Positions 11,181 through 60,553 of a stretch of 64,000 bases of DNA are shown here, piece by piece. The stretch comes from a virus: the IMG/VR virus record IMGVR_UViG_3300045999_010503, positions 1 to 64,000 of that record; one strand, 5' to 3'. Within the stretch, counting starts at the first letter, position 1. Each line of letters opens with the position of its first letter. The notes below the pieces were generated by a model. That model was not told where the DNA came from, did no database searches, and was given only the letters and a program-made list of their open reading frames with translations. The position numbers and the translations under genes are program-made.

Positions 11181-13040
11181 ATGCCCGAGACCTGCTCATC
11201 CACGCCCCACTGGCCCGCCACGACTTCCTTCGCGGTCGACTTTGAGTCGACCTACTCGAAAGGGAAGCGCGACATCTCCACGCTGGGCACGGCTCAGTAT
11301 CTCCGCCACCAAGAGACGAAGATCTACCTCGTCTCGATCTACGGCGTCTTCCCCGACGGCACCGCCATCAGCTACTCCGGCCCCGTCGAGCAGGCGCCCT
11401 GGCACCGCATCAACGGCCATCATTGGGTGAGCCACAACGCCGCCTTCGACGCCCAGGTATTCATCGAGTGCCTACGCCGCGGCCAGGCCCCCGAGGACGT
11501 CGCCCCGAGCGCGTGGGACTGCACCGCCGACCTCGCCGCCTTCCTCGGCTCCGGCCGATCCTTGGCCGCCGCCTGCGAGTTCCTCCTTGGCGTCACGGTC
11601 GACAAGACCGTGCGCGACGAGATGAACAACAAGACCTGGGAGACGATGACGCCTGAGTTCCGCCAGGCCGCCATCGACTACGCGCTCAACGACGCCAAGC
11701 GTTGCTGGGAACTGTGGCAGGGTTACGGCGCCCAGTGGCCGGCCAAGGAAGTCGCGATCAGCCGCCACACCGCCGACATGGTCATTCGCGGTATCCACGT
11801 CGACAGCGCCTACGTCGACGAGGGCATCAGCACCCTCAATAAGGCCATCTTCGAGGTCGAGGGCCGCATCCCCTGGCTCGACGAGAAGGACGCGAAGGGC
11901 AAGTTCTACACCGTCGGCAGCAAGAAGGCGATGGCCAAGGCTTGTGTCGCCGCCGGCATCCCGCCGCCCACGTCCACGGCCGACAAGAACGAGCTCTTCG
12001 ACCGCTGGTGCGAGCAGTTCGCCGACCGCGCGCCCTTCGTCGCCGCGGTGAAGGAACATCGCTCCATCAACCGCACGATCGACGTGCTGGAGAAGATCCG
12101 CGACCGCACGCTCGCCGACGGGCGGATGCCCTACGGGCTGAAGTATTTTGGGGCCCATACGGGGCGATTTTCGGGCGACTCCGGCCTCAACCTCCACAAC
12201 CTCACCAAGAAGAAGATCGCCGGCGTCGACCTCCGCGGCTGCCTCGTCCCCGCGCCCGGCAAGAAGTTCATCGTCGCCGACCTCAAGCAGATCGAGGCGC
12301 GCGTCTCCCTCTGGTTTGCCGAGGACTGGGCGCAGCTCGAACTCCTGCGCAACGGCATGGACGTCTACGAGGCCCACGCCCGCCAGACGATGGGCTACAA
12401 GGACCCGATGCCCTTGTCCGAGTGGGTGAAGTTGCCCGAGCGCACCGACGCCGAGAAGAACGTCCGCCAGATCGCCAAGGCGCGCGTCCTCGGCCTCGGC
12501 TTTGGTATGGGCCACGCCCGCCTCATCGACTATGCGAAGGCCCAACTCGGCCTCGAGCTGACCGTGCAGCAGGCCAAGGCGATCGTGAACGGCTTCCGCA
12601 ACGCCAACCGCGGCATTGTCCACCTCTGGAACAAGCTGGGCCGCGCGATGGAGACCCACGCTGGCGGCCCGAACCGCCACGCACCCTTCGTCATCGAACT
12701 CCCGAGCTGGCGCCAACTCGAGTATTACGACGTGAACTCGTCAGACGGGCTCCAAGCCCGCGACGAGATCGGCGGCCGGATGAATTACTACCACGGCCCG
12801 AAGCTCGCCGAGAACGTCGTCCAAGCCACCGCCCGCGACGTGCTCGTCGAGGCCATCCTCCGCATCGAATCGGTCTTCCCCGGCTCCGTCGTCCTCCACG
12901 TCCACGACGAAGTCGTCTGCGAGGTCGACCTGTCCGTCGACCCCGCCGAGATCGAGGCGCTCATGTCTGTCACCCCCGACTGGGTCGAGGGGCTGCCGGT
13001 AGGTTCCTCGGTCGAGGAAGCCGAACGCTATTTCAAGTAA
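11181..13040 (+). CDS. Family A DNA polymerase with 3'-5' exonuclease
   Basis: 619 residues. Exonuclease motifs: FAVDFES (Asp20, Glu22), HNAAFD (Asp90) and YALND (Tyr167, Asp171), the DEDDy set. Polymerase motifs: VADLKQIEAR (motif A, Asp367), ARVLGLGFGMG region (motif B, about 434-444), and LHVHDEV (motif C, His575-Asp576). Length matches phage PolA-like enzymes lacking the 5' nuclease. It replicates the phage genome together with the primase-helicase downstream. Translation starts after a structured leader. Confidence 0.93.
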   Translation: MPETCSSTPHWPATTSFAVDFESTYSKGKRDISTLGTAQYLRHQETKIYLVSIYGVFPDGTAISYSGPVEQAPWHRINGHHWVSHNAAFDAQVFIECLRRGQAPEDVAPSAWDCTADLAAFLGSGRSLAAACEFLLGVTVDKTVRDEMNNKTWETMTPEFRQAAIDYALNDAKRCWELWQGYGAQWPAKEVAISRHTADMVIRGIHVDSAYVDEGISTLNKAIFEVEGRIPWLDEKDAKGKFYTVGSKKAMAKACVAAGIPPPTSTADKNELFDRWCEQFADRAPFVAAVKEHRSINRTIDVLEKIRDRTLADGRMPYGLKYFGAHTGRFSGDSGLNLHNLTKKKIAGVDLRGCLVPAPGKKFIVADLKQIEARVSLWFAEDWAQLELLRNGMDVYEAHARQTMGYKDPMPLSEWVKLPERTDAEKNVRQIAKARVLGLGFGMGHARLIDYAKAQLGLELTVQQAKAIVNGFRNANRGIVHLWNKLGRAMETHAGGPNRHAPFVIELPSWRQLEYYDVNSSDGLQARDEIGGRMNYYHGPKLAENVVQATARDVLVEAILRIESVFPGSVVLHVHDEVVCEVDLSVDPAEIEALMSVTPDWVEGLPVGSSVEEAERYFK

Positions 13041-43304: not shown

Positions 43305-46238
43305 TCAAGAGCGATTGTTAGGAGTTGTTATCTCCATGAGGCCGGTGGCGCAGGCGGCGGCGAGGGCCATTCGGAGGCAGTTGCCGGCGATGCTCGGGAA
43401 TCCCTTGCGGCGGACGATCAAAGTGCCGTTGGGGACCGTCGCGCAGTAGACCGGGCCGGAGTAGGGCACCTTCTCGACGAGGAACTTGTTCTTGCAGTCG
43501 CGGAGGAGGACGTGAGGGATGTTGCGAACTGTTACCCGGTAGTGGGGTAGAGCCACGCCGGAGCGCCCAGCGATGTTCCAGACGCCCTCGGGCATCGCGA
43601 CCGTGCGCGAGGTGAGGCCAACCTTCAGAAGCAGTTCGGCCGTGTCGTCCGCGAGCTGCTTGCTCGTGGTGGAGAGAAGGCGCTTCTTGCCCAAGTGGCC
43701 GTCCCCGAGAAACAGGCCCGCGAGATAGGCAGAGATGACGCGGGGGGTGGCATCTTTGATCCACTGCGGAACTCGCTTGTTCTCGGCCAGATGACCGCAC
43801 TCGGAGACGAGCGCGGTGAGCTGCTGGTTTCCGGCGTAATAGGTGCCGCGCTTATTGCGACTGAACTTCCACGGGAGCCGGCTGAGGGTTTCGCGCCACA
43901 GCGCGCCATCGCGGACGGTGCCGACCTTCTGAGACACGTCGGTCTGGCTCGACCCGTCCCGACGTCGGTATAGGCAGCCCTCCGCGGTGAACCAGCCGAG
44001 GAATCGGGCCAACACCTCGCGATCCACTTCCGTCGCTTTCATGCAGCGGGTGGCGGGTATTTGAACTGGCCCAGTGAGGCCATCGCCCTCCCACACGGAC
44101 GCCGTGACCTTGATGCGGTCCCAAAGGGTGAGCTCATCGGCGCGCTTGATTGAGTCGACGAAGCGTTGGCGGAGCGTGCCGAACTCGTCGCGGAAATGCC
44201 GACGCTCCTCGACGACCATGCGGTGGTCGGGCGTGACCGCGAACGACATCGCGCGGTGCTTGCACTCGAGCAGGTGACCGTCGTGGTGCTTAGCGATGAG
44301 GGCCTCGGGGCGGTGGTATTCGATCTGGTCGCGGTCCAGGTTCACCGTCGCGAAAAGGCTGTCGTGGCTCACCTCGGTCCACTTCTTCCAGCCGTCGCGG
44401 GTAAGCACCTCAGTCTCGGGGTCAAAACACGAGCCCCAGTGATCGTCGGGGCGCTTCTGCACCCACTCGGTCTCGATCACGCCGTTGGCCTTCTCGTTGT
44501 CCCGGCGCTCGTAGGCGGTGAGCTGCATCTTGAACTCGTGGAGGTCATCGCCGTTGCCATTGATCTCAAACCGCGGGCCGACGCCGCGCATGCAGGCCTC
44601 CGCGCGGTCGAGCATGGAGGACTTGCTGAAGAGGAGCTGACGGAGCGGGGCGGCGCGGCCCGCCTGCTCGCTGCCGAGGTAGGGGTCGACGAAGGACCAG
44701 GTGTAGGGCAGGCGCAGGGTCTTGCCGTCGCCGAGCGCGAGGGTGTAGTGCGGGGCCTTGTCGCCCTTCATCGCTTTCCAGGCGTAGTTGCCGTCGGGGA
44801 GCTGGCCGCTCTCGAGGATGTAGCGGTAGACCTCCGCGGCCCAGTGGCCGCTGTCGATGCCGACGTTGGAAGCGGGGACGTGGTAGGTGGTCTGGAGGGC
44901 GCGCAGCTCCTCGACGCTCCAGGCCTTGCCCCAGGCGACGGCGCGGTGGGCGCCGCCCTGGGCAAAGTCGAAGACGCCCCAGTAGAAGTGCCGACCGCCC
45001 TTGCCCTGGACGTCGACCATCATAAAGCGCCGCGCGGGCACGAAGGGCGGCAGGGTGGCGTCGTTGAAGTCGACGACGCGGTCGTCGATGTAGCTGTCGG
45101 ATTTGCCGTAGCGCATCCGGTCGGTCCAGGGCTGACCGAGCTTCTCGGTGATGAAGGCCTTCAGCGGCTCGAAGTCGCCGTAGTCGTTGGCGATCTCGGC
45201 CTGGACGAACTGCTGCACGAGGGCCGACCATTTGATCCAGTAGGGTAGGAGGGCGTTCCAGGTGTAGCTGCGGCGCTCGGCGGGGGCGCTGGGGTTGTGC
45301 GGCACCCACTGACCGCGGTCGGCGAGCGTGCGGCGGATGTCCGGGCGGTCTTGGTGGAGGTGGCCGCAGCGGGGGCAGACGTAACGGACGTGCGGGGCGA
45401 GCTTGTCGAAGTCCCACTTGCCGTCGGGAGTCTTGGCGCCGAGCACGTCCGACCACTTCACGCAGCGGGGGCGGCCGGTCGCGTCGGTCTCGGTCGGGTG
45501 CGCGGCCTTCATGTTCGCCCAGTCGAGCGGGCCGGAGTAGTCGCAGGCCTCGTTCAGGCAGGGGACGTGGTAGTGCCGCTGGTCGCCGTTCAGAAACTCG
45601 TTGTGGACGGTGTCGCGCTCCTTCTCCGGTGTGGTCAGGATGACGATGCGGCTGTTCCAGAAGGTGGTGACGCGGGCCTTGGCCATCGGCAGCGCCCAGG
45701 CGGGCCAGTTGCGCACCTCGTCGCAGAGGAGAAATCGGCGGGGGCGGCTCTGGAGCTTCGCCTTGGCGTTGGCGCCGACCGCCTCCAGCATCATCGTCGG
45801 GAAGAGGATCTCAGTCGTCTTCGCCAAGGTGCGGTCGTCGGGGATGGAGGAGGCGACGGGCGGGCACGACCGCAGAGCGGGCATGAGGCGCTCGTTGCAG
45901 AACTTCAGGGCCTCGTCCTCCGACGACGTGATCCACATGGTCGGGGACGGGTCCTCGGCCACGATCCAGGAGAGGAGGGCCAGCATGGTCTCCGTCTTCG
46001 AGGACTGGGCGGAGCAGAGGACGGTGATCTGGCGGATCGAGTTGTCGGCGAAGGTCTCCATGACCTCGCGCACCCACGGGGAGGTTTCGCTGCGCCACTT
46101 GCCGCCGGCGGAGAGGGCCGAGACGGGCGGGACATAGTAGTCCTCGGCCCATTGCCACGGCGGACGGCGGTCGGCGGGCTTCCAAGCCAACGTGGCGGCC
46201 TTGGCGACCGGGTCGTAGGCGGGGGCAGGGGTGCTCAC
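43305..46238 (-). CDS. Terminase large subunit with intein (gpA-like)
   Basis: 977 residues from GTG at 46238. The ATPase part has the gpA-type loop LCSAQSSKTE and RRFLLCDEVRN (Walker B). The nuclease part shows MMVDVQGKGGRHFYWG and GIDSGHWAAEV. A 350-residue intein (residues 604-953) interrupts the nuclease at GS/CLRMALAAA. After splicing the terminase would be 627 residues, normal for this family. It packages DNA with the small subunit upstream. The last codons hold TAACAACTCCTAACAA. Confidence 0.9.
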   Translation of the reverse strand: MSTPAPAYDPVAKAATLAWKPADRRPPWQWAEDYYVPPVSALSAGGKWRSETSPWVREVMETFADNSIRQITVLCSAQSSKTETMLALLSWIVAEDPSPTMWITSSEDEALKFCNERLMPALRSCPPVASSIPDDRTLAKTTEILFPTMMLEAVGANAKAKLQSRPRRFLLCDEVRNWPAWALPMAKARVTTFWNSRIVILTTPEKERDTVHNEFLNGDQRHYHVPCLNEACDYSGPLDWANMKAAHPTETDATGRPRCVKWSDVLGAKTPDGKWDFDKLAPHVRYVCPRCGHLHQDRPDIRRTLADRGQWVPHNPSAPAERRSYTWNALLPYWIKWSALVQQFVQAEIANDYGDFEPLKAFITEKLGQPWTDRMRYGKSDSYIDDRVVDFNDATLPPFVPARRFMMVDVQGKGGRHFYWGVFDFAQGGAHRAVAWGKAWSVEELRALQTTYHVPASNVGIDSGHWAAEVYRYILESGQLPDGNYAWKAMKGDKAPHYTLALGDGKTLRLPYTWSFVDPYLGSEQAGRAAPLRQLLFSKSSMLDRAEACMRGVGPRFEINGNGDDLHEFKMQLTAYERRDNEKANGVIETEWVQKRPDDHWGSCFDPETEVLTRDGWKKWTEVSHDSLFATVNLDRDQIEYHRPEALIAKHHDGHLLECKHRAMSFAVTPDHRMVVEERRHFRDEFGTLRQRFVDSIKRADELTLWDRIKVTASVWEGDGLTGPVQIPATRCMKATEVDREVLARFLGWFTAEGCLYRRRDGSSQTDVSQKVGTVRDGALWRETLSRLPWKFSRNKRGTYYAGNQQLTALVSECGHLAENKRVPQWIKDATPRVISAYLAGLFLGDGHLGKKRLLSTTSKQLADDTAELLLKVGLTSRTVAMPEGVWNIAGRSGVALPHYRVTVRNIPHVLLRDCKNKFLVEKVPYSGPVYCATVPNGTLIVRRKGFPSIAGNCLRMALAAACATGLMEITTPNNRS
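43380..44429 (-). mobile_element. Intein with LAGLIDADG homing endonuclease
   Basis: The intein starts at Cys (CFDPETEVLTRDGWKKW, block A), has VTPDHRM in block B, LARFLGWFTAEGCLYRRR and SAYLAGLFLGDGHLGKKR as two LAGLIDADG motifs, and ends GPVYCATVPNGTLIVRRKGF followed by SIAGN before Cys+1. All blocks expected for a splicing and homing-capable intein are present; the penultimate residue is Gly instead of His, as in some phage inteins. It sits in a conserved terminase nuclease site. Length 1050 bp. Confidence 0.92.
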
Positions 46239-55643: not shown

Positions 55644-56651
55644 ATGAGCCTGTCAAACAAAGTCCTCTGCATCAACCTCCGCACGAGCTGCCTCGGCACC
55701 TCGTTCGTCGATAGCACCCTTACCGCCCACCTCGAACACGTCACCGGCGCCGACAAGAAGAAGGTCAAGGGCTCCAAGAAGATCCTCGGCGACGCCCTCA
55801 AGGAGATCCAGTCCGAGCTCCGCGGCGTGAAGACCTTCGCCAAGGAGAACAGCCTCCCCGGCATCAGCGACGACCTCCGCATCATCACCCCGAAGCTCCT
55901 CGACAAGGTCCGCGCCGAGGTGCTCGCCACCGAGGAGCGCATCCAGGCGCTCGTCGCCAAGTTCTCCGAGGTCGTCTCGTTCACCCCGGCCACCGTCACC
56001 GATCAGGTCGACGAGCGCGGCCAGCGCATCGTCACGCTCCACGAGCCGATGACGATGACGCTCTGGCAGTCGCTCCAGGAGCAGGACAAGATCGACCTCA
56101 AGGGCGCCTTCGACCCGCACGACTACCCGCCGCTCGAAAACCTGCCGCAGTTCTTCAGCGTCCGCCTCACCACCTGCGACCTGCCGCAGGGCGACTTCTT
56201 CCGCGTCGAGGGTCTCACTGACGAGGCCGTGGAGAAGCTCAAGGCCGACCACGCCAAGATGATCGAGTCGATCAGCAGCGCGGCCCGCAACGACGTCCAC
56301 CGCAAGCTCGTGGAGATGGTCAACCGCGTCGCCGAGTCGCTCGCCAAGGAAGACATCAGCAAGCTCCACAACACCACCTTCACCAACCTGCTCGACTACC
56401 TCGACCAGGTGCCCGACCTCAACATCACCAACGACCCGCACCTCGACGCGATGGTCCGCGAGGTCCGCGAGAAGCTCAATTTCACGATGGCGCAGGTCAA
56501 GGCGTCCGCCGTGCTCAAGGAGCAGGCCGCGGCTGCCGCCAAGGACATCCTCAACCGCTTCGGCAAGTCCGAGCGCAAGGTCATCGTCGATCTGTCCCCC
56601 GAACCCGTGGCCGCCGAGTCTTGCCCCGCGTCGGTCGAGTCGGCCGCCTGA
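55644..56651 (+). CDS. DUF3150-like coiled-coil protein
   Basis: 335 residues. LSNKVLCINLRTSCLGTSFVDSTLTAHLEHVTGADKKKVKGSKKILGDALKEIQSEL begins a long helical protein with repeated heptads to about 310. The size and pattern resemble DUF3150-like phage proteins of unknown role. The leader carries TAACAACACTCAACAC about 15 nt before ATG. Soluble; a scaffold or DNA-related role is possible. Confidence 0.6.
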   Translation: MSLSNKVLCINLRTSCLGTSFVDSTLTAHLEHVTGADKKKVKGSKKILGDALKEIQSELRGVKTFAKENSLPGISDDLRIITPKLLDKVRAEVLATEERIQALVAKFSEVVSFTPATVTDQVDERGQRIVTLHEPMTMTLWQSLQEQDKIDLKGAFDPHDYPPLENLPQFFSVRLTTCDLPQGDFFRVEGLTDEAVEKLKADHAKMIESISSAARNDVHRKLVEMVNRVAESLAKEDISKLHNTTFTNLLDYLDQVPDLNITNDPHLDAMVREVREKLNFTMAQVKASAVLKEQAAAAAKDILNRFGKSERKVIVDLSPEPVAAESCPASVESAA

Positions 56652-56675
56652 TAACAACTAACAACACTTCATTCT

Positions 56676-57149
56676 ATGAGTCATGTTGAGACAGCACGCG
56701 TTACTATAACCGACCTCGATGCCCTGAAAGCCGCCTGCGCCCGCCTCGGCGTCGAGTTCGTCGAGAACAAGAAAACCTACAACTGGTATGGGCGGCACAT
56801 GGGCGACTACCCGCCGCCAGCCGGGTTCAACCCGTCTGACCTCGGCCACTGCGACCACGTCGTCCGCGTGCCGGGTGTCAACTACGAGATCGGCATCGTC
56901 AAAGCCCGCAACCCGGACGGCACGCCCGCCAAGGGTTACACCTGCCTGTTCGACTTCTGGGGAACGGGTGGCAGCAGCCGCCACGACGGCCAAAAGCTGC
57001 TCAAGCAGTTCGGCCAGGGCCTCGTGAAGCTCGTCGACGCCTATTCCGTCGAGGCGCTCAAGGCGGTCGCCCGCAAGAAGGGCTACACGACCAGCGAGTC
57101 CAAACTACCGAACGGCAAAACCAAGCTCCTCGTCACGGGGTTCGCGTAA
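56676..57149 (+). CDS. DUF1257 (Ycf35-like) protein
   Basis: 157 residues. MSHVETARVTITDLDALKAACARLGVEFVENKKTYNWYG matches the start of DUF1257 proteins, whose cyanobacterial and plastid relatives are called Ycf35. It is followed by a DUF2997-like gene and, further on, a Ycf46-like AAA+ gene, a grouping seen in cyanobacteria. Function of the family is unknown. The leader holds two TAACAAC units. Confidence 0.78.
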   Translation: MSHVETARVTITDLDALKAACARLGVEFVENKKTYNWYGRHMGDYPPPAGFNPSDLGHCDHVVRVPGVNYEIGIVKARNPDGTPAKGYTCLFDFWGTGGSSRHDGQKLLKQFGQGLVKLVDAYSVEALKAVARKKGYTTSESKLPNGKTKLLVTGFA

Positions 57150-57151
57150 CC

Positions 57152-57346
57152 ATGACCAACTTCACCGTAGTCGGGTTCTGGCCCGACACCGACGAACGCT
57201 TTGCGGACTCCGTCGACGCCGACACGCCCGCAGAAGCCGAAGCGAAGATAGGCCGCAGCCACCCGGGGGTCGCCATCGTCGCGGTTCTCAGTGGGCACGT
57301 CGTCGTGGAAGACGCCGACGTGCTCGTAAATTACACCACACCATGA
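57152..57346 (+). CDS. Small hypothetical protein
   Basis: 64 residues. TNFTVVGFWPDTDERFADSVDADTPAEAEAKIGRSHPGVAIVAVL with a VVEDADVLVNY end. It is a small mixed fold placed between the DUF1257 and DUF2997 genes and overlaps the latter by 4 nt. Function unknown. Confidence 0.6.
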   Translation: MTNFTVVGFWPDTDERFADSVDADTPAEAEAKIGRSHPGVAIVAVLSGHVVVEDADVLVNYTTP

Positions 57347-57552
57347 GCAATCTCAAAACCATCGAGTTCATCGTCGGCGACGGCGAAGTCGTCATCGAGG
57401 CCTCCGGCTTCAAGGGCGGCGCCTGCGAGGCCGCCAGCAAAGCCTTCGAGGACGCCCTCGGCGGCAACGTCACCGGCAAGAAACGCAAGGCCGAGTTCTA
57501 TCAGGCCGCGCCCACCCAGAAACTCACGACCGGAGGGAAATCAAATGGATGA
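57343..57552 (+). CDS. DUF2997-like protein
   Basis: 69 residues. IEFIVGDGEVVIEASGFKGGACEAASKAFEDALGG resembles the DUF2997 family, which accompanies DUF1257 and Ycf46 proteins in cyanobacteria. It may share a complex with them. The basic tail is typical. Overlaps the next gene by 8 nt. Confidence 0.75.
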   Translation: MSNLKTIEFIVGDGEVVIEASGFKGGACEAASKAFEDALGGNVTGKKRKAEFYQAAPTQKLTTGGKSNG

Positions 57553-57871
57553 CCACGAAAAGACCCTCGCCGAAATGCTCGGCCGCGCCTCAACCGACAT
57601 CATCAAGGCCGAGGTCCAACGGACGGCCTTCCTGGCCCAGCAGATGGCTGAAATGGGCCTCGGCACTACCCTCGCCGCACAGTTTGGCCGCCCACCAGAC
57701 GCCCCGGACACCGCAGCGACCACCGTGGTCATCCTCCTCAGCGGCCGCTTCCCGCAGGATCTTGTCGACGGGCTTATCAAGCACGTGAACGGCCTCATCC
57801 AAGACTTCCGGGCCGGCAACAAGGCGCACTTCGTCGACCTGAGACCCAAGAAGCATGAAACCCCCGAGTGA
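57545..57871 (+). CDS. Hypothetical protein in the Ycf-like cluster
   Basis: 108 residues. Helical acidic start (MDDHEKTLAEMLGRASTDIIKAEVQRTAFLAQQMAEMGL), then a strand-rich end. It lies between two DUF2997-like genes. Function unknown but probably linked to the same complex. Confidence 0.6.
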   Translation: MDDHEKTLAEMLGRASTDIIKAEVQRTAFLAQQMAEMGLGTTLAAQFGRPPDAPDTAATTVVILLSGRFPQDLVDGLIKHVNGLIQDFRAGNKAHFVDLRPKKHETPE

Positions 57872-58115
57872 GGTCACCCTGATCGTCGGCGACGGCGAGA
57901 TCACCGCCCTCGCCGGCGGCCCGATCAGCCTCGCCGACATGGGCGAGCGCAAGACGAAGCGCGTCTCCACGCTCGAGTTCAGCTCCATCGACAACCAGTG
58001 GCACGTCTTCGACGCCGCGACCGGCGCCGACCTGTATTCGCACCACGACTACGACGTCGCCCTCGCGTGGGAGATCGCCCACTTCAACCGCGTCCTCGAA
58101 ACCGTCGAGACGTGA
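57855..58115 (+). CDS. Second DUF2997-like or hypothetical protein
   Basis: 86 residues. VTLIVGDGEITALAGGPISLADMGERKTKRVSTLEFSSIDNQWHVFD starts like the DUF2997-like protein (VGDGE), then differs, with a C-terminal YDVALAWEIAHFNRVLETV helix. It is followed by a long non-coding region. It may be a diverged relative of the gene at 57343. Confidence 0.6.
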   Translation: MKPPSEVTLIVGDGEITALAGGPISLADMGERKTKRVSTLEFSSIDNQWHVFDAATGADLYSHHDYDVALAWEIAHFNRVLETVET

Positions 58116-58215
58116 CCCATCTTCGGAGTGCGTTCCGGCCCGCGTGAGCGGGTAGCCGGCGAGGGGCGACGGCCCCTGCCCAGGCGACGGCCTGGCGCGA
58201 ATCTCCACCAATTTC
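58116..58215 (+). ncRNA. Structured RNA before tRNA-Cys
   Basis: Three perfect stems: CCCGC-gtga-GCGGG (about 58139-58152, closed by a GNRA loop), AGGGGC-gacg-GCCCCT (about 58162-58177) and CCAGGC-gacg-GCCTGG (about 58179-58194), plus outer CCGG/CCGG pairing. No T-arm or anticodon arm, so not a tRNA. It immediately precedes tRNA-Cys and could be part of the same transcript. Confidence 0.55.
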
Positions 58216-58292
58216 CGCACCGTCTGGCCGAAGGTAGGCTGATCCGTCTGCAAAACGGGGAACAGAGGGTTCGATTCCCTCCGGTGCGTCCA
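58216..58292 (+). tRNA. tRNA-Cys (anticodon GCA)
   Basis: All arms are present: acceptor CGCACCG/CGGTGCG (7 bp), D-arm TGGC/GCTG with two wobble pairs, anticodon arm TCCGT-CTGCAAA-ACGGG with anticodon GCA, variable loop GAACA, T-arm GAGGG-TTCGATT-CCCTC, discriminator T and encoded CCA. Phages often carry tRNAs for codons rare in the host. It sits in a long non-coding region with other stems. Confidence 0.93.
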
Positions 58293-58757
58293 CTTTCCGG
58301 CAGCCCACGGGCTCCGGCAATAATACCAGCAGCCCTGCGTTGGGTCAAAGTCACCGAAGGTCTTCGGGCCACCGGGGTATCTCACTGTCCCGCCTCGTCC
58401 GCGGCGAGAGTCACACGCAGGCCTCGGGCAGGCTGGGTAAGGCGATGGAACCGAACTCGCCACCTCCAATTTCCGCCGCGCGTCGGCCAAAACCGGGTCT
58501 GTGGTTATTCCCGGCCCGGCGCGCGGCGGTTTCCACCTTTCCCTGCCAGGACGAGACTCAAATCCGCCGCATGCAGCGATATGTTGAAAGCCCCGCCTGC
58601 GTGGACCCACCGGCCAGATCACCGGCCACCCGTGGGGCGATAACTGGCAGGGAAACCCCAATCTCCCACCCCGGCGCAGGCGCAGTAGGGACGTCGTATC
58701 CATTCGACCACGACGTCCGCGATCCGCGTGCCCGGCGGTGGGCTCCTCTGTTCACCT
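58293..58757 (+). ncRNA. Multi-stem structured region after tRNA-Cys
   Basis: 465 bp with no gene. CCGCCGCGCG/CGCGCGGCGG (58473-58529) makes a 10-bp stem around CCGGG/CCCGG. TTTCCCTGCCA (58538-58548) and TGGCAGGGAAA (58645-58655) pair over 11 bp and enclose ~96 nt with GCCCCGC/GTGGGGC inside. GGACGTCGT/ACGACGTCC (58689-58718) is a 9-bp stem. The gene at 58758 follows a GTGGGCTCC segment like the other leaders. Possibly one or more RNAs or a control leader. Confidence 0.55.
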
Positions 58758-59000
58758 ATGGACGAAGAAACCTACTCCCTCTGCGAAGCCGTCGCCGATC
58801 TGGCGCTCTGGGCCGGGCACGACCTGGCGAAGGGGCTCTGGGAGCGCCCGCCCGACAGCCGAGAGCTCGTGCGCCTGCTCCTCGAGTGGGCGGAAGAGTT
58901 CGAGCGCGACAACGCCGGCCGTGAATGGGACGGCGAATACCTGGAAGCCATCGACAGCTTCTACCGGCAGAAAATCAAAGAACTCTCTCAAACCACATGA
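58758..59000 (+). CDS. Small acidic protein
   Basis: 80 residues from ATG at 58758. MDEETYSLCEAVADLALWAGHDLAKGLWERPPDSRELVRLLLEWAEEFERDNAGREWDGEYLEAIDSFY is a helical, acidic protein, overlapping the AAA+ gene by 4 nt. It may be a partner of the ATPase. No known family. Confidence 0.6.
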   Translation: MDEETYSLCEAVADLALWAGHDLAKGLWERPPDSRELVRLLLEWAEEFERDNAGREWDGEYLEAIDSFYRQKIKELSQTT

Positions 59001-60553
59001 CCGAACGCATCACCAACTACCTCCGGGCCGGCTATTCCGGCCTCTACGTCGTCAGCCACGAGGAGGCCCGCGCCGAGGCGGCCGTTGCCGACTCGATTGA
59101 GCGTCTCAACAGCAAACTCCCCAAGAACGACCCCAAGGTTCCGACCTTCAAGCTCTTCGCATGGTCCCTCACGCAGGGCACCGTGGACGCCCGCACCGGC
59201 GACGCCGTCGGCAAGGACCACGGCGTCGAGGAAGTGCTCGTCTGGTTCCAAGAACAGCCCGAGAGCAGCGTCCTCCTGCTCCGCGACTACCACCTGTTCG
59301 TCGAGGACAAGAACCCGGTCGTCTGGCGCCGTCTCCACGACGTCCTCCGCTCCGGCAAGGCCGCCAACAAGGCCGTCGTCATCCTCGCCTGCCGCCTCGC
59401 CATCCCGCCCGAGCTCGAAAAGGAGATCACGGTGCTGGATTTCTCGCTCCCGACCCGCGAGCAGCTCCGCGACACCCTCGCCGATCTCGTCGAGGGCAAC
59501 AAAATCAAGCCCGAGAAAGTCGAGGACGCCGGATTGCTCGCCGCCGCTGCCGCCGGCCTCACCGCGGCCGAGGCGGAGCAGGCTTTCGCGCTCTCCCTCG
59601 TCGAAACCGGGCGCATCACCCGCGAAATCGTCTTCCGCGAGAAGTGCCAGGCCGTCCGCAAGAACGGCATGCTCGAAATCGTCGAGGGCAAGGTGACCCT
59701 CGACGACATCGGCGGCCTCGAGAACCTGAAAAAGTGGCTCCTGGAGCGCCGTGACGCCTTCAGCGACGAGGCGCGGGCCTACAACCTCCCGGTTCCCCGC
59801 GGCTGCCTCGCCGTGGGCCAGCCCGGCACCGGCAAATCGCTCACCGCCAAGGCGACCGCGAGCGTATTCGGCGTTCCACTACTGCGCCTCGACGCCGCCA
59901 AGCTCTTCGGGTCGCTTGTCGGCCAGTCCGAGGCCAACTGGCGCGCCGTCCACGCCACCGCGAAGGCGATGGCGCCCTGCATCCTCTGGATCGACGAGGT
60001 CGACGGCGCGATGTCGGGCTCCGGCAGCAGCGGCCAGACCGACGGCGGCACCACCGCCCGCGTCGTCAAGTCCATCCTCCAGGACATGCAGGACAACAGC
60101 GAGGGCATCTTCTACATGCTCACTGCGAACGACGTGGACGCGTTGCCCTCGCCCCTCCTGCGCCGCATGGACGAGGTCTGGAACGTCGAGCTCCCCACCG
60201 CCGCCGAGCGCGAGATAATCTGGGGCATCCAGCTCCGGCGCGTGAAGCGCGACCCCGCGACGTTCGACCTCACCAAGCTCGCGACGGACAGCGTCGACTA
60301 CTCCGGCGCCGAGATCGAGAAGGCCGTGGCCCAGGCGCTCTACCGTGCGTTCCCCGAACGCCGCGAGCCGACGATGGAAGACTTCGCAGCCATCACCAAG
60401 GAGTTCATGCCCCTCGCCAAGACGATGAGCGCCGACATCGAACGCCGCCGCAAGCGTCTGGAGGGCGTCGCGAAGTTGGCCGGCGGCACGGTCAAGGTCG
60501 TGCAAGCGAAGCCGGCGCGGAAAATCCTGAGCGTGGGAGGGAAGGCCGCATGA
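58997..60553 (+). CDS. Ycf46-like AAA+ ATPase
   Basis: 518 residues from ATG at 58997. N-terminal ITNYLRAGYSGLYVVSHEEARAEAAV is typical of Ycf46-like proteins. Then DDIGGLENLKKWLLERR, AVGQPGTGKSLTAKATA (Walker A), CILWIDEVDGA (Walker B), ANDVDALPSPLLRRMDEVW (sensor/arginine finger) and YSGAEIEKAVAQALYRAF follow in order. The family is found in cyanobacteria and plastids with DUF1257 partners; its role is unknown. Here it would act on or with the upstream DUF1257 and DUF2997 proteins. Confidence 0.85.
   Translation: MTERITNYLRAGYSGLYVVSHEEARAEAAVADSIERLNSKLPKNDPKVPTFKLFAWSLTQGTVDARTGDAVGKDHGVEEVLVWFQEQPESSVLLLRDYHLFVEDKNPVVWRRLHDVLRSGKAANKAVVILACRLAIPPELEKEITVLDFSLPTREQLRDTLADLVEGNKIKPEKVEDAGLLAAAAAGLTAAEAEQAFALSLVETGRITREIVFREKCQAVRKNGMLEIVEGKVTLDDIGGLENLKKWLLERRDAFSDEARAYNLPVPRGCLAVGQPGTGKSLTAKATASVFGVPLLRLDAAKLFGSLVGQSEANWRAVHATAKAMAPCILWIDEVDGAMSGSGSSGQTDGGTTARVVKSILQDMQDNSEGIFYMLTANDVDALPSPLLRRMDEVWNVELPTAAEREIIWGIQLRRVKRDPATFDLTKLATDSVDYSGAEIEKAVAQALYRAFPERREPTMEDFAAITKEFMPLAKTMSADIERRRKRLEGVAKLAGGTVKVVQAKPARKILSVGGKAA

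Follow-up and report, generated by a model that had tools for sequence, protein, structure and literature searches.

The window analysed here is a 64,000-nucleotide stretch of viral DNA, positions 1-64,000 of IMG/VR virus record IMGVR_UViG_3300045999_010503 (66.3 kb). Its region 55644-60553 carries genes that all lie on the plus strand in tight order. Judged by their sequences, five of these co-directional genes form a module: they encode a DUF3150 family protein (335 amino acids (aa); 55644-56651), a DUF1257 (Ycf35-like) protein (157 aa; 56676-57149), a DUF2997 protein (69 aa; 57343-57552), a small protein with an RRASHV motif (86 aa; 57855-58115) and a Ycf46-like AAA+ ATPase (518 aa; 58997-60553). 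Most adjoining module genes overlap or almost touch, the exception being at a tRNA block. An earlier sequence-only reading had noted that Ycf35-like, DUF2997-like and Ycf46-like proteins are encoded together here. That observation is right, all three genes lying on one strand in tight order, and it is larger than described, the DUF3150 and RRASHV genes also belonging to the module. Ycf46, Ycf35/DUF1257, DUF2997 and DUF3150 are families without an assigned molecular function. No description of a phage module of this kind was found in the papers searched, including those on DUF1257 or DUF2997; the five-gene mobile-element module is built from known families.

Family assignment of the module genes

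Profile comparisons support all three families named by the sequence-only reading. The AAA+ ATPase matches PF00004 (92 bits) and phrog_8638 (384 bits); its start is likely the ATG at 58997, not 58925. An N-terminal part without a P-loop (residues ~1-225) precedes an AAA+ core (~226-475) with Walker A (274-281), Walker B (329-334), sensor 1 (N378) and an Arg-finger region (R389/R390). All of these are conserved across 79 AAA+ relatives, none of which departs from the window protein at K280, N378 or two of the Walker A glycines. With this classical AAA core, intact catalytic motifs and N-terminal part, the protein reads as an intact Ycf46-type AAA+ with a complete classical AAA active site. The Ycf46 label was given on these features, and the cyanobacterial AAA+ in the comparison is that of a Nostoc plasmid, encoded beside DUF1257/DUF2997 (1.8e-107). 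It was in cyanobacteria and plastids that motors of the Ycf46 type were originally recognised. Among proteins of solved structure, those closest in sequence are AAA domains of the CDC48/p97 and NSF types, which are protein-remodelling enzymes.

Group I introns (Rfam RF00028) split the AAA+ gene in three viral lineages (L181:8933-9715, L145:8994-9881 and L039:7677-8506; such numbers designate locus entries of the survey described below), in every case within the Walker B motif, directly following its Asp (residue 333 of the window protein). Such introns typically occupy highly conserved, needed genes, which suggests that the AAA+ motor matters to the phage. The three intron-bearing loci also encode related HNH proteins.

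The DUF2997 protein scores 44.6 bits against PF11211, above the curated Pfam cut-off of 24.1, and its Cys28 is identical in 63 of 63 sequences. A direct Pfam scan gave no PF06868 match for the DUF1257-like protein; this family was assigned through relatives, 17 of 22 of which match PF06868. A protein of Aeromonas phage HJ05, found by phmmer (E 2.3e-7), matches PF06868 with 34.6 bits. Profile-profile comparison by hhalign of the window protein and two relatives with phage DUF1257 proteins gave a probability of 99.9% (E 1e-32). A tblastn search of phages with the window DUF1257 found nothing. Its AlphaFold2 model is confident (predicted local distance difference test score (pLDDT) 88.7, predicted template-modelling score (pTM) 0.85) and matches in BFVD (probability 1.00, E 3.3e-9) a 147-aa viral protein without a name in its record; a protein annotated as DUF1257 in Rhizobium phage RHph_I4 has the same length, an agreement that is suggestive only. 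DUF1257 and DUF2997 are adjacent in 91 of 104 loci, and in L075 they are fused in one open reading frame (ORF) whose DUF2997 half scores 49.2 bits in Pfam; L134 may hold a second such fusion.

The upstream gene, overlooked by the sequence-only reading, is DUF3150 by profile homology and belongs to the module. Its product has no direct Pfam match to PF11348, which is matched by 10 of 14 members of its family (best 2e-24), and hhalign comparison of the window group with Pfam-type DUF3150 gave 99.4% (E 3.7e-21). No mention of DUF3150 was found in the papers searched. The AlphaFold2 model is again confident (pLDDT 89.9, pTM 0.80). Foldseek found no meaningful match in the PDB for either the DUF1257 or the DUF3150 model; thus, no function can be transferred from structure.

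The fifth gene, 57855-58115, had been taken for a possible second DUF2997 gene. This is ruled out: its product belongs (E 5.4e-24) to a distinct family of small phage proteins, marked by an RRASHV-like motif, that recurrently accompanies DUF1257/DUF2997 and is absent from cellular copies. The family occurs in 24 groups (70% linkage), all of which also have DUF1257/DUF2997; the 18 groups in which DUF3150 occurs without that pair all lack it.

Recurrence in phages, plasmids and chromosomes

Viral and genome scans seeded with AAA+ proteins only yielded 181 locus entries, some being the same contigs. Family searches of records with PF06868/PF11348 missed known members and gave way to alignment profiles; for scanning viral contigs by pattern, the diversity within the DUF1257 and DUF2997 alignments proved too great. 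The profiles detected the other module genes within a few kb of the AAA+ gene in dozens of unrelated loci, so the clustering is beyond chance. Grouping at 60% AAA+ identity gave 44 independent viral clusters: 12 with AAA+, DUF3150, DUF1257 and DUF2997, 10 with the trio without DUF3150, 9 with AAA+ and DUF3150 only, 7 with AAA+ alone and 6 mixed. Many contigs are partial and these counts are minima. Relatives thus carry several members, which together with the profile support for the families removes both objections to a system that the sequence-only reading had named. All four genes occur in 56 loci (viral contigs and prophage-like genome loci, near-copies included), always on one strand and with a median span of 3.8 kb. 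Some of these loci lie in Verrucomicrobia genomes and look like prophages (within L044-L060, and L064); adjoining terminase genes are shown only in L059.

In the closest relatives, L001 and L002/L124 (AAA+ 67% and 63% identical to the window AAA+), the order DUF3150, DUF1257, DUF2997, RRASHV, AAA+ is kept. Because lineages differ in how the genes are ordered, their being kept together is not simply the inheritance of a single ancestral layout. L001 also encodes a second AAA protein (395-2083; PF00004 63 bits, also nSTAND3) directly upstream of DUF3150, which the window lacks.

Cultured phages of Rhizobium, Agrobacterium, Aeromonas, Pseudomonas, Rhodobacter and Tunturiibacter carry the module, as do plasmids, including Manganitrophus plasmids. 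Among 50,697 phage records, 10 contained DUF2997 (Rhizobium-phage query), representing at most seven distinct phage types; in the regions read of L338C, HJ05, JP1, RcTiptonus, RHph_I4 and SM1 (the last through its AAA+), AAA+ and DUF1257 lie beside DUF2997. The suggestion of a portable system therefore stands, since many phages unrelated to one another, and some plasmids, carry the trio side by side on the same strand. In cultured phages an O-like or helix-turn-helix (HTH) protein, DnaB and Pol I are encoded downstream of the module. Since several of these phages infect laboratory hosts (Rhodobacter, Rhizobium, Agrobacterium, Aeromonas, Pseudomonas), the role of the plastid and cyanobacterial set becomes testable by phage genetics; Corndog-type mycobacteriophages offer the same opening for AAA+ and DUF3150.

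In the Acidianus tailed spindle virus (L196, 3853-6083), DUF1257 (1e-4) and DUF2997 (1e-5) are matched weakly behind an AAA+ gene, a hint that the module extends to archaeal viruses. Near the AAA+-DUF3150 genes of L035 lies a gene for a QueE-like protein (7-carboxy-7-deazaguanine synthase; 12270-13028), which suggests a phage with deazaguanine DNA modification.

Chromosomal loci of Verrucomicrobia, Planctomycetes, Myxococcales and Clostridia encode the same AAA+, with DUF1257 and/or DUF2997 nearby in half of them. They differ from the phage module in their other genes: no DUF3150 or RRASHV gene was detected by profile in the cellular copies (L061-L122, excluding prophage-like L064), and a radical S-adenosylmethionine (radical SAM) gene lies near the AAA+ gene in 32 of 62 cellular loci, 25 of these at most 400 nucleotides upstream, as detected with an iterated profile that reaches remote members. 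The radical SAM is of a NrdG-like Fer4_12 form (E 2e-34 to 7e-22 against the NrdG model, below the model cut-off) in Clostridia, on a Paenibacillus plasmid and in several large phages, and more generic in Verrucomicrobia/Planctomycetes copies; radical-SAM loci were noted among L061-L121 and in L062, L011, L136 and L194.

A quick AAA+ tree places the window together with L001, L002 and loci linked to Verrucomicrobia (Shimodaira-Hasegawa-like approximate likelihood ratio test (SH-aLRT) 100), and the host of the window phage is likely a member of the Verrucomicrobiota. One clade of 19 chromosomal sequences is nested within viral diversity; with a midpoint root and several long branches, the tree does not indicate a direction of transfer.

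Proposed function and alternative explanations

Cyanobacterial and plastid Ycf46, Ycf35 (DUF1257) and DUF2997 are the same three families as in the phage set. In cyanobacteria, duf2997 and ycf35 cluster with the ferredoxin gene fed7 (PMC4284462), whereas the phage set adds DUF3150 and RRASHV and lies near replication genes. A parallel in setting is offered by MoxR/CobS AAA+-DUF3150-VWA sets (IncC plasmids, cyanophages; viral CobST), in which, as in the phage module, AAA+ and DUF3150 genes lie near recombination/replication genes. Cyanophage MinM2 (L192) encodes a MoxR ATPase, DUF3150 and VWA, and the multidrug-resistance IncC plasmids (L190) encode an AAA ATPase, ssb-bet-exo, DUF3150 (profile E 2.8e-20) and VWA, a DUF3150-AAA-VWA set on which no paper was found. 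These sets combine a MoxR-type motor with a VWA co-factor, whereas the window combines a Ycf46-type motor of the classical AAA family (PF00004) with DUF1257/DUF2997, and no VWA was found in its module genes. Because DUF3150 also accompanies MoxR/AAA and VWA, there are two mobile-element architectures that share DUF3150 and differ in motor and co-factor. MoxR-vWA ternary systems, in which an AAA+ chaperone works with a co-chaperone and a variable third component (PMC7159879), served as the working model.

On balance, region 55644-60553 is best read as a conserved mobile-element module encoding an ATP-driven protein-remodelling machine with a DUF1257/DUF2997 co-factor and a DUF3150 adaptor, active in the early/replication phase; this reading is held with some confidence, and a protein-remodelling role as such is probable. 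In its favour are the independent recurrence of the module, the conserved ATPase motifs, the adjacency and fusion of DUF1257 and DUF2997, the replication setting and an exchange of partners, with DUF3150 and radical SAM sharing none of 56 independent groups (24 and 7 groups, respectively; Fisher p 0.016). The AAA+ protein would assemble into a ring that uses ATP to remodel a protein client. DUF1257 and DUF2997 would bind each other and act as the co-factor pair of the motor, and DUF3150, the predicted client adaptor or co-factor, would with the RRASHV protein be an exchangeable link between ring and client. The module would be expressed early with the replication genes, its most likely task being to assemble, activate or dismantle an enzyme complex needed for phage DNA synthesis. 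Remodelling or maturation of a client complex is favoured because of the early/replication gene setting and the parallel with MoxR-DUF3150-VWA sets; no observation singles out the host takeover or stress response suggested by the sequence-only reading.

Several observations weigh against this reading. The phages of Alphaproteobacteria, Aeromonas and Pseudomonas have no detectable DUF3150. Phages of the Corndog type encode AAA+ and DUF3150, but no DUF1257/DUF2997 was seen in the part of them that was read; thus, the parts of the module are not strictly obligate. The possible DUF1257-DUF2997 fusion in L134 has a weak DUF2997 score (0.009). The mutual exclusion of DUF3150 and radical SAM is largely confounded with the phage/chromosome divide. 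The adjoining replication genes may reflect early transcription only.

A role in redox or radical enzyme maturation is a less probable but substantial alternative. The trio would load, activate or protect an iron-sulfur or radical enzyme such as ribonucleotide reductase, with the DUF2997 Cys as chemical group, thereby boosting the deoxynucleotide (dNTP) supply of the phage. The NrdG-like and generic radical-SAM partners, the cyanobacterial ferredoxin cluster and the invariant Cys28 are consistent with it, and viral CobST has been interpreted as aiding the supply of cobalamin and hence nucleotide synthesis (PMC8651126). However, no window ORF matches the radical-SAM profile, no DUF3150-bearing group has such a gene, and no ribonucleotide reductase was found among the subset of window genes scanned.

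The same partners allow a broader view, which is rather unlikely as stated: AAA+(Ycf46)-DUF1257-DUF2997 would be a maturation engine of general use whose partner slot takes different proteins, DUF2997 being a Cys-bearing carrier or substrate that is loaded by the motor and modified or presented by the partner, and phages would have repurposed the engine for replication. The slot would be occupied by radical SAM in chromosomes and some large phages, by ferredoxin in cyanobacteria and by DUF3150 with RRASHV in phages and plasmids. The swap between radical SAM, ferredoxin and DUF3150 as such, together with the parallel DUF3150-VWA sets of IncC plasmids, suggests a mechanism common to mobile elements.

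A conflict function, in which the module counters a host defence, acts against host complexes or keeps other phages out, is unlikely. It would agree with what is thought of IetAS and of MoxR-vWA ternary systems, which are proposed conflict systems (Kaur et al. 2020, PMC7159879), and the AAA+ core matches PADLOC IetA models (9e-26) and NCBIfam IteA. IetAS and SGI1 SgiAT, which pair an AAA+ with a subtilisin-like protease, have a related classical AAA domain, but the IteA score of 83.9 bits is far below the curated cut-off of 510, the match is limited to the shared AAA domain and no protease partner was found in the module genes scanned; IetAS membership is rejected. Unlike MoxR-vWA ternary systems, the window module has an AAA+ of another clade and no vWA, and no effector, protease or toxin domain was found in its genes. 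Moreover, in cultured phages it sits with core replication genes. Auxiliary metabolic genes of cyanobacterial or plastid origin, tuning host photosynthesis or carbon use, are very improbable and this role was rejected: Ycf46 inactivation is cited as altering CO2 use in Synechocystis (Jiang 2015, as cited in PMC7496141), but most of the hosts named do not photosynthesise (Rhizobium, Aeromonas, Pseudomonas, Verrucomicrobia metagenome-assembled genomes) and phage AAA+ diversity is deep, with the chromosomal clade sitting among it.

Accessory features and phage setting

The extra small proteins remarked on by the sequence-only reading are present, with a narrow distribution. The 108-aa accessory protein (57545-57871, plus strand, overlapping both neighbours) is shared with no copies other than the two nearest, L001 and L002 (phmmer 8e-13 and 4e-8), and the 80-aa protein (58758-59000, plus strand, overlapping the AAA+ start) was found among the relatives compared in L002 only (1e-16). 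A 64-aa ORF (57152-57346, plus strand) has no significant family match and no homologue in the relatives by phmmer, and is probably not a conserved part.

The GC-rich intergenic block 58116-58757 (642 nucleotides) had been seen as a structured RNA accompanying the module. The structure is supported, the block folding better than shuffles (z -3.3) with several long hairpins, including a 14-bp stem (58473-58529) and a 12-bp stem (58538-58655). Its membership in the module was set aside, the block not being conserved among copies. The sole recognisable element is a tRNA-Cys (GCA) found by ARAGORN (58216-58292, plus strand), and no Rfam family reached threshold. ARAGORN found no tRNA in nine other module copies; L002 has one in the equivalent slot (Rfam, 31.6 bits). 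A phage-encoded transfer-messenger RNA (tmRNA; Rfam 108 bits) lies close to the module in L145 (11868-12285).

Judged from its gene content, the window phage is a temperate-type tailed phage. The minus strand encodes a gpA-type terminase, portal, major head protein, tape measure and integrase, and the plus strand, which also carries the module, encodes Pol A, a helicase/exonuclease and an ATP-dependent DNA ligase. The terminase (977 aa; 43305-46238) contains an extra stretch matching LAGLIDADG_3 (residues 834-882), which suggests an intein or homing-endonuclease insertion.

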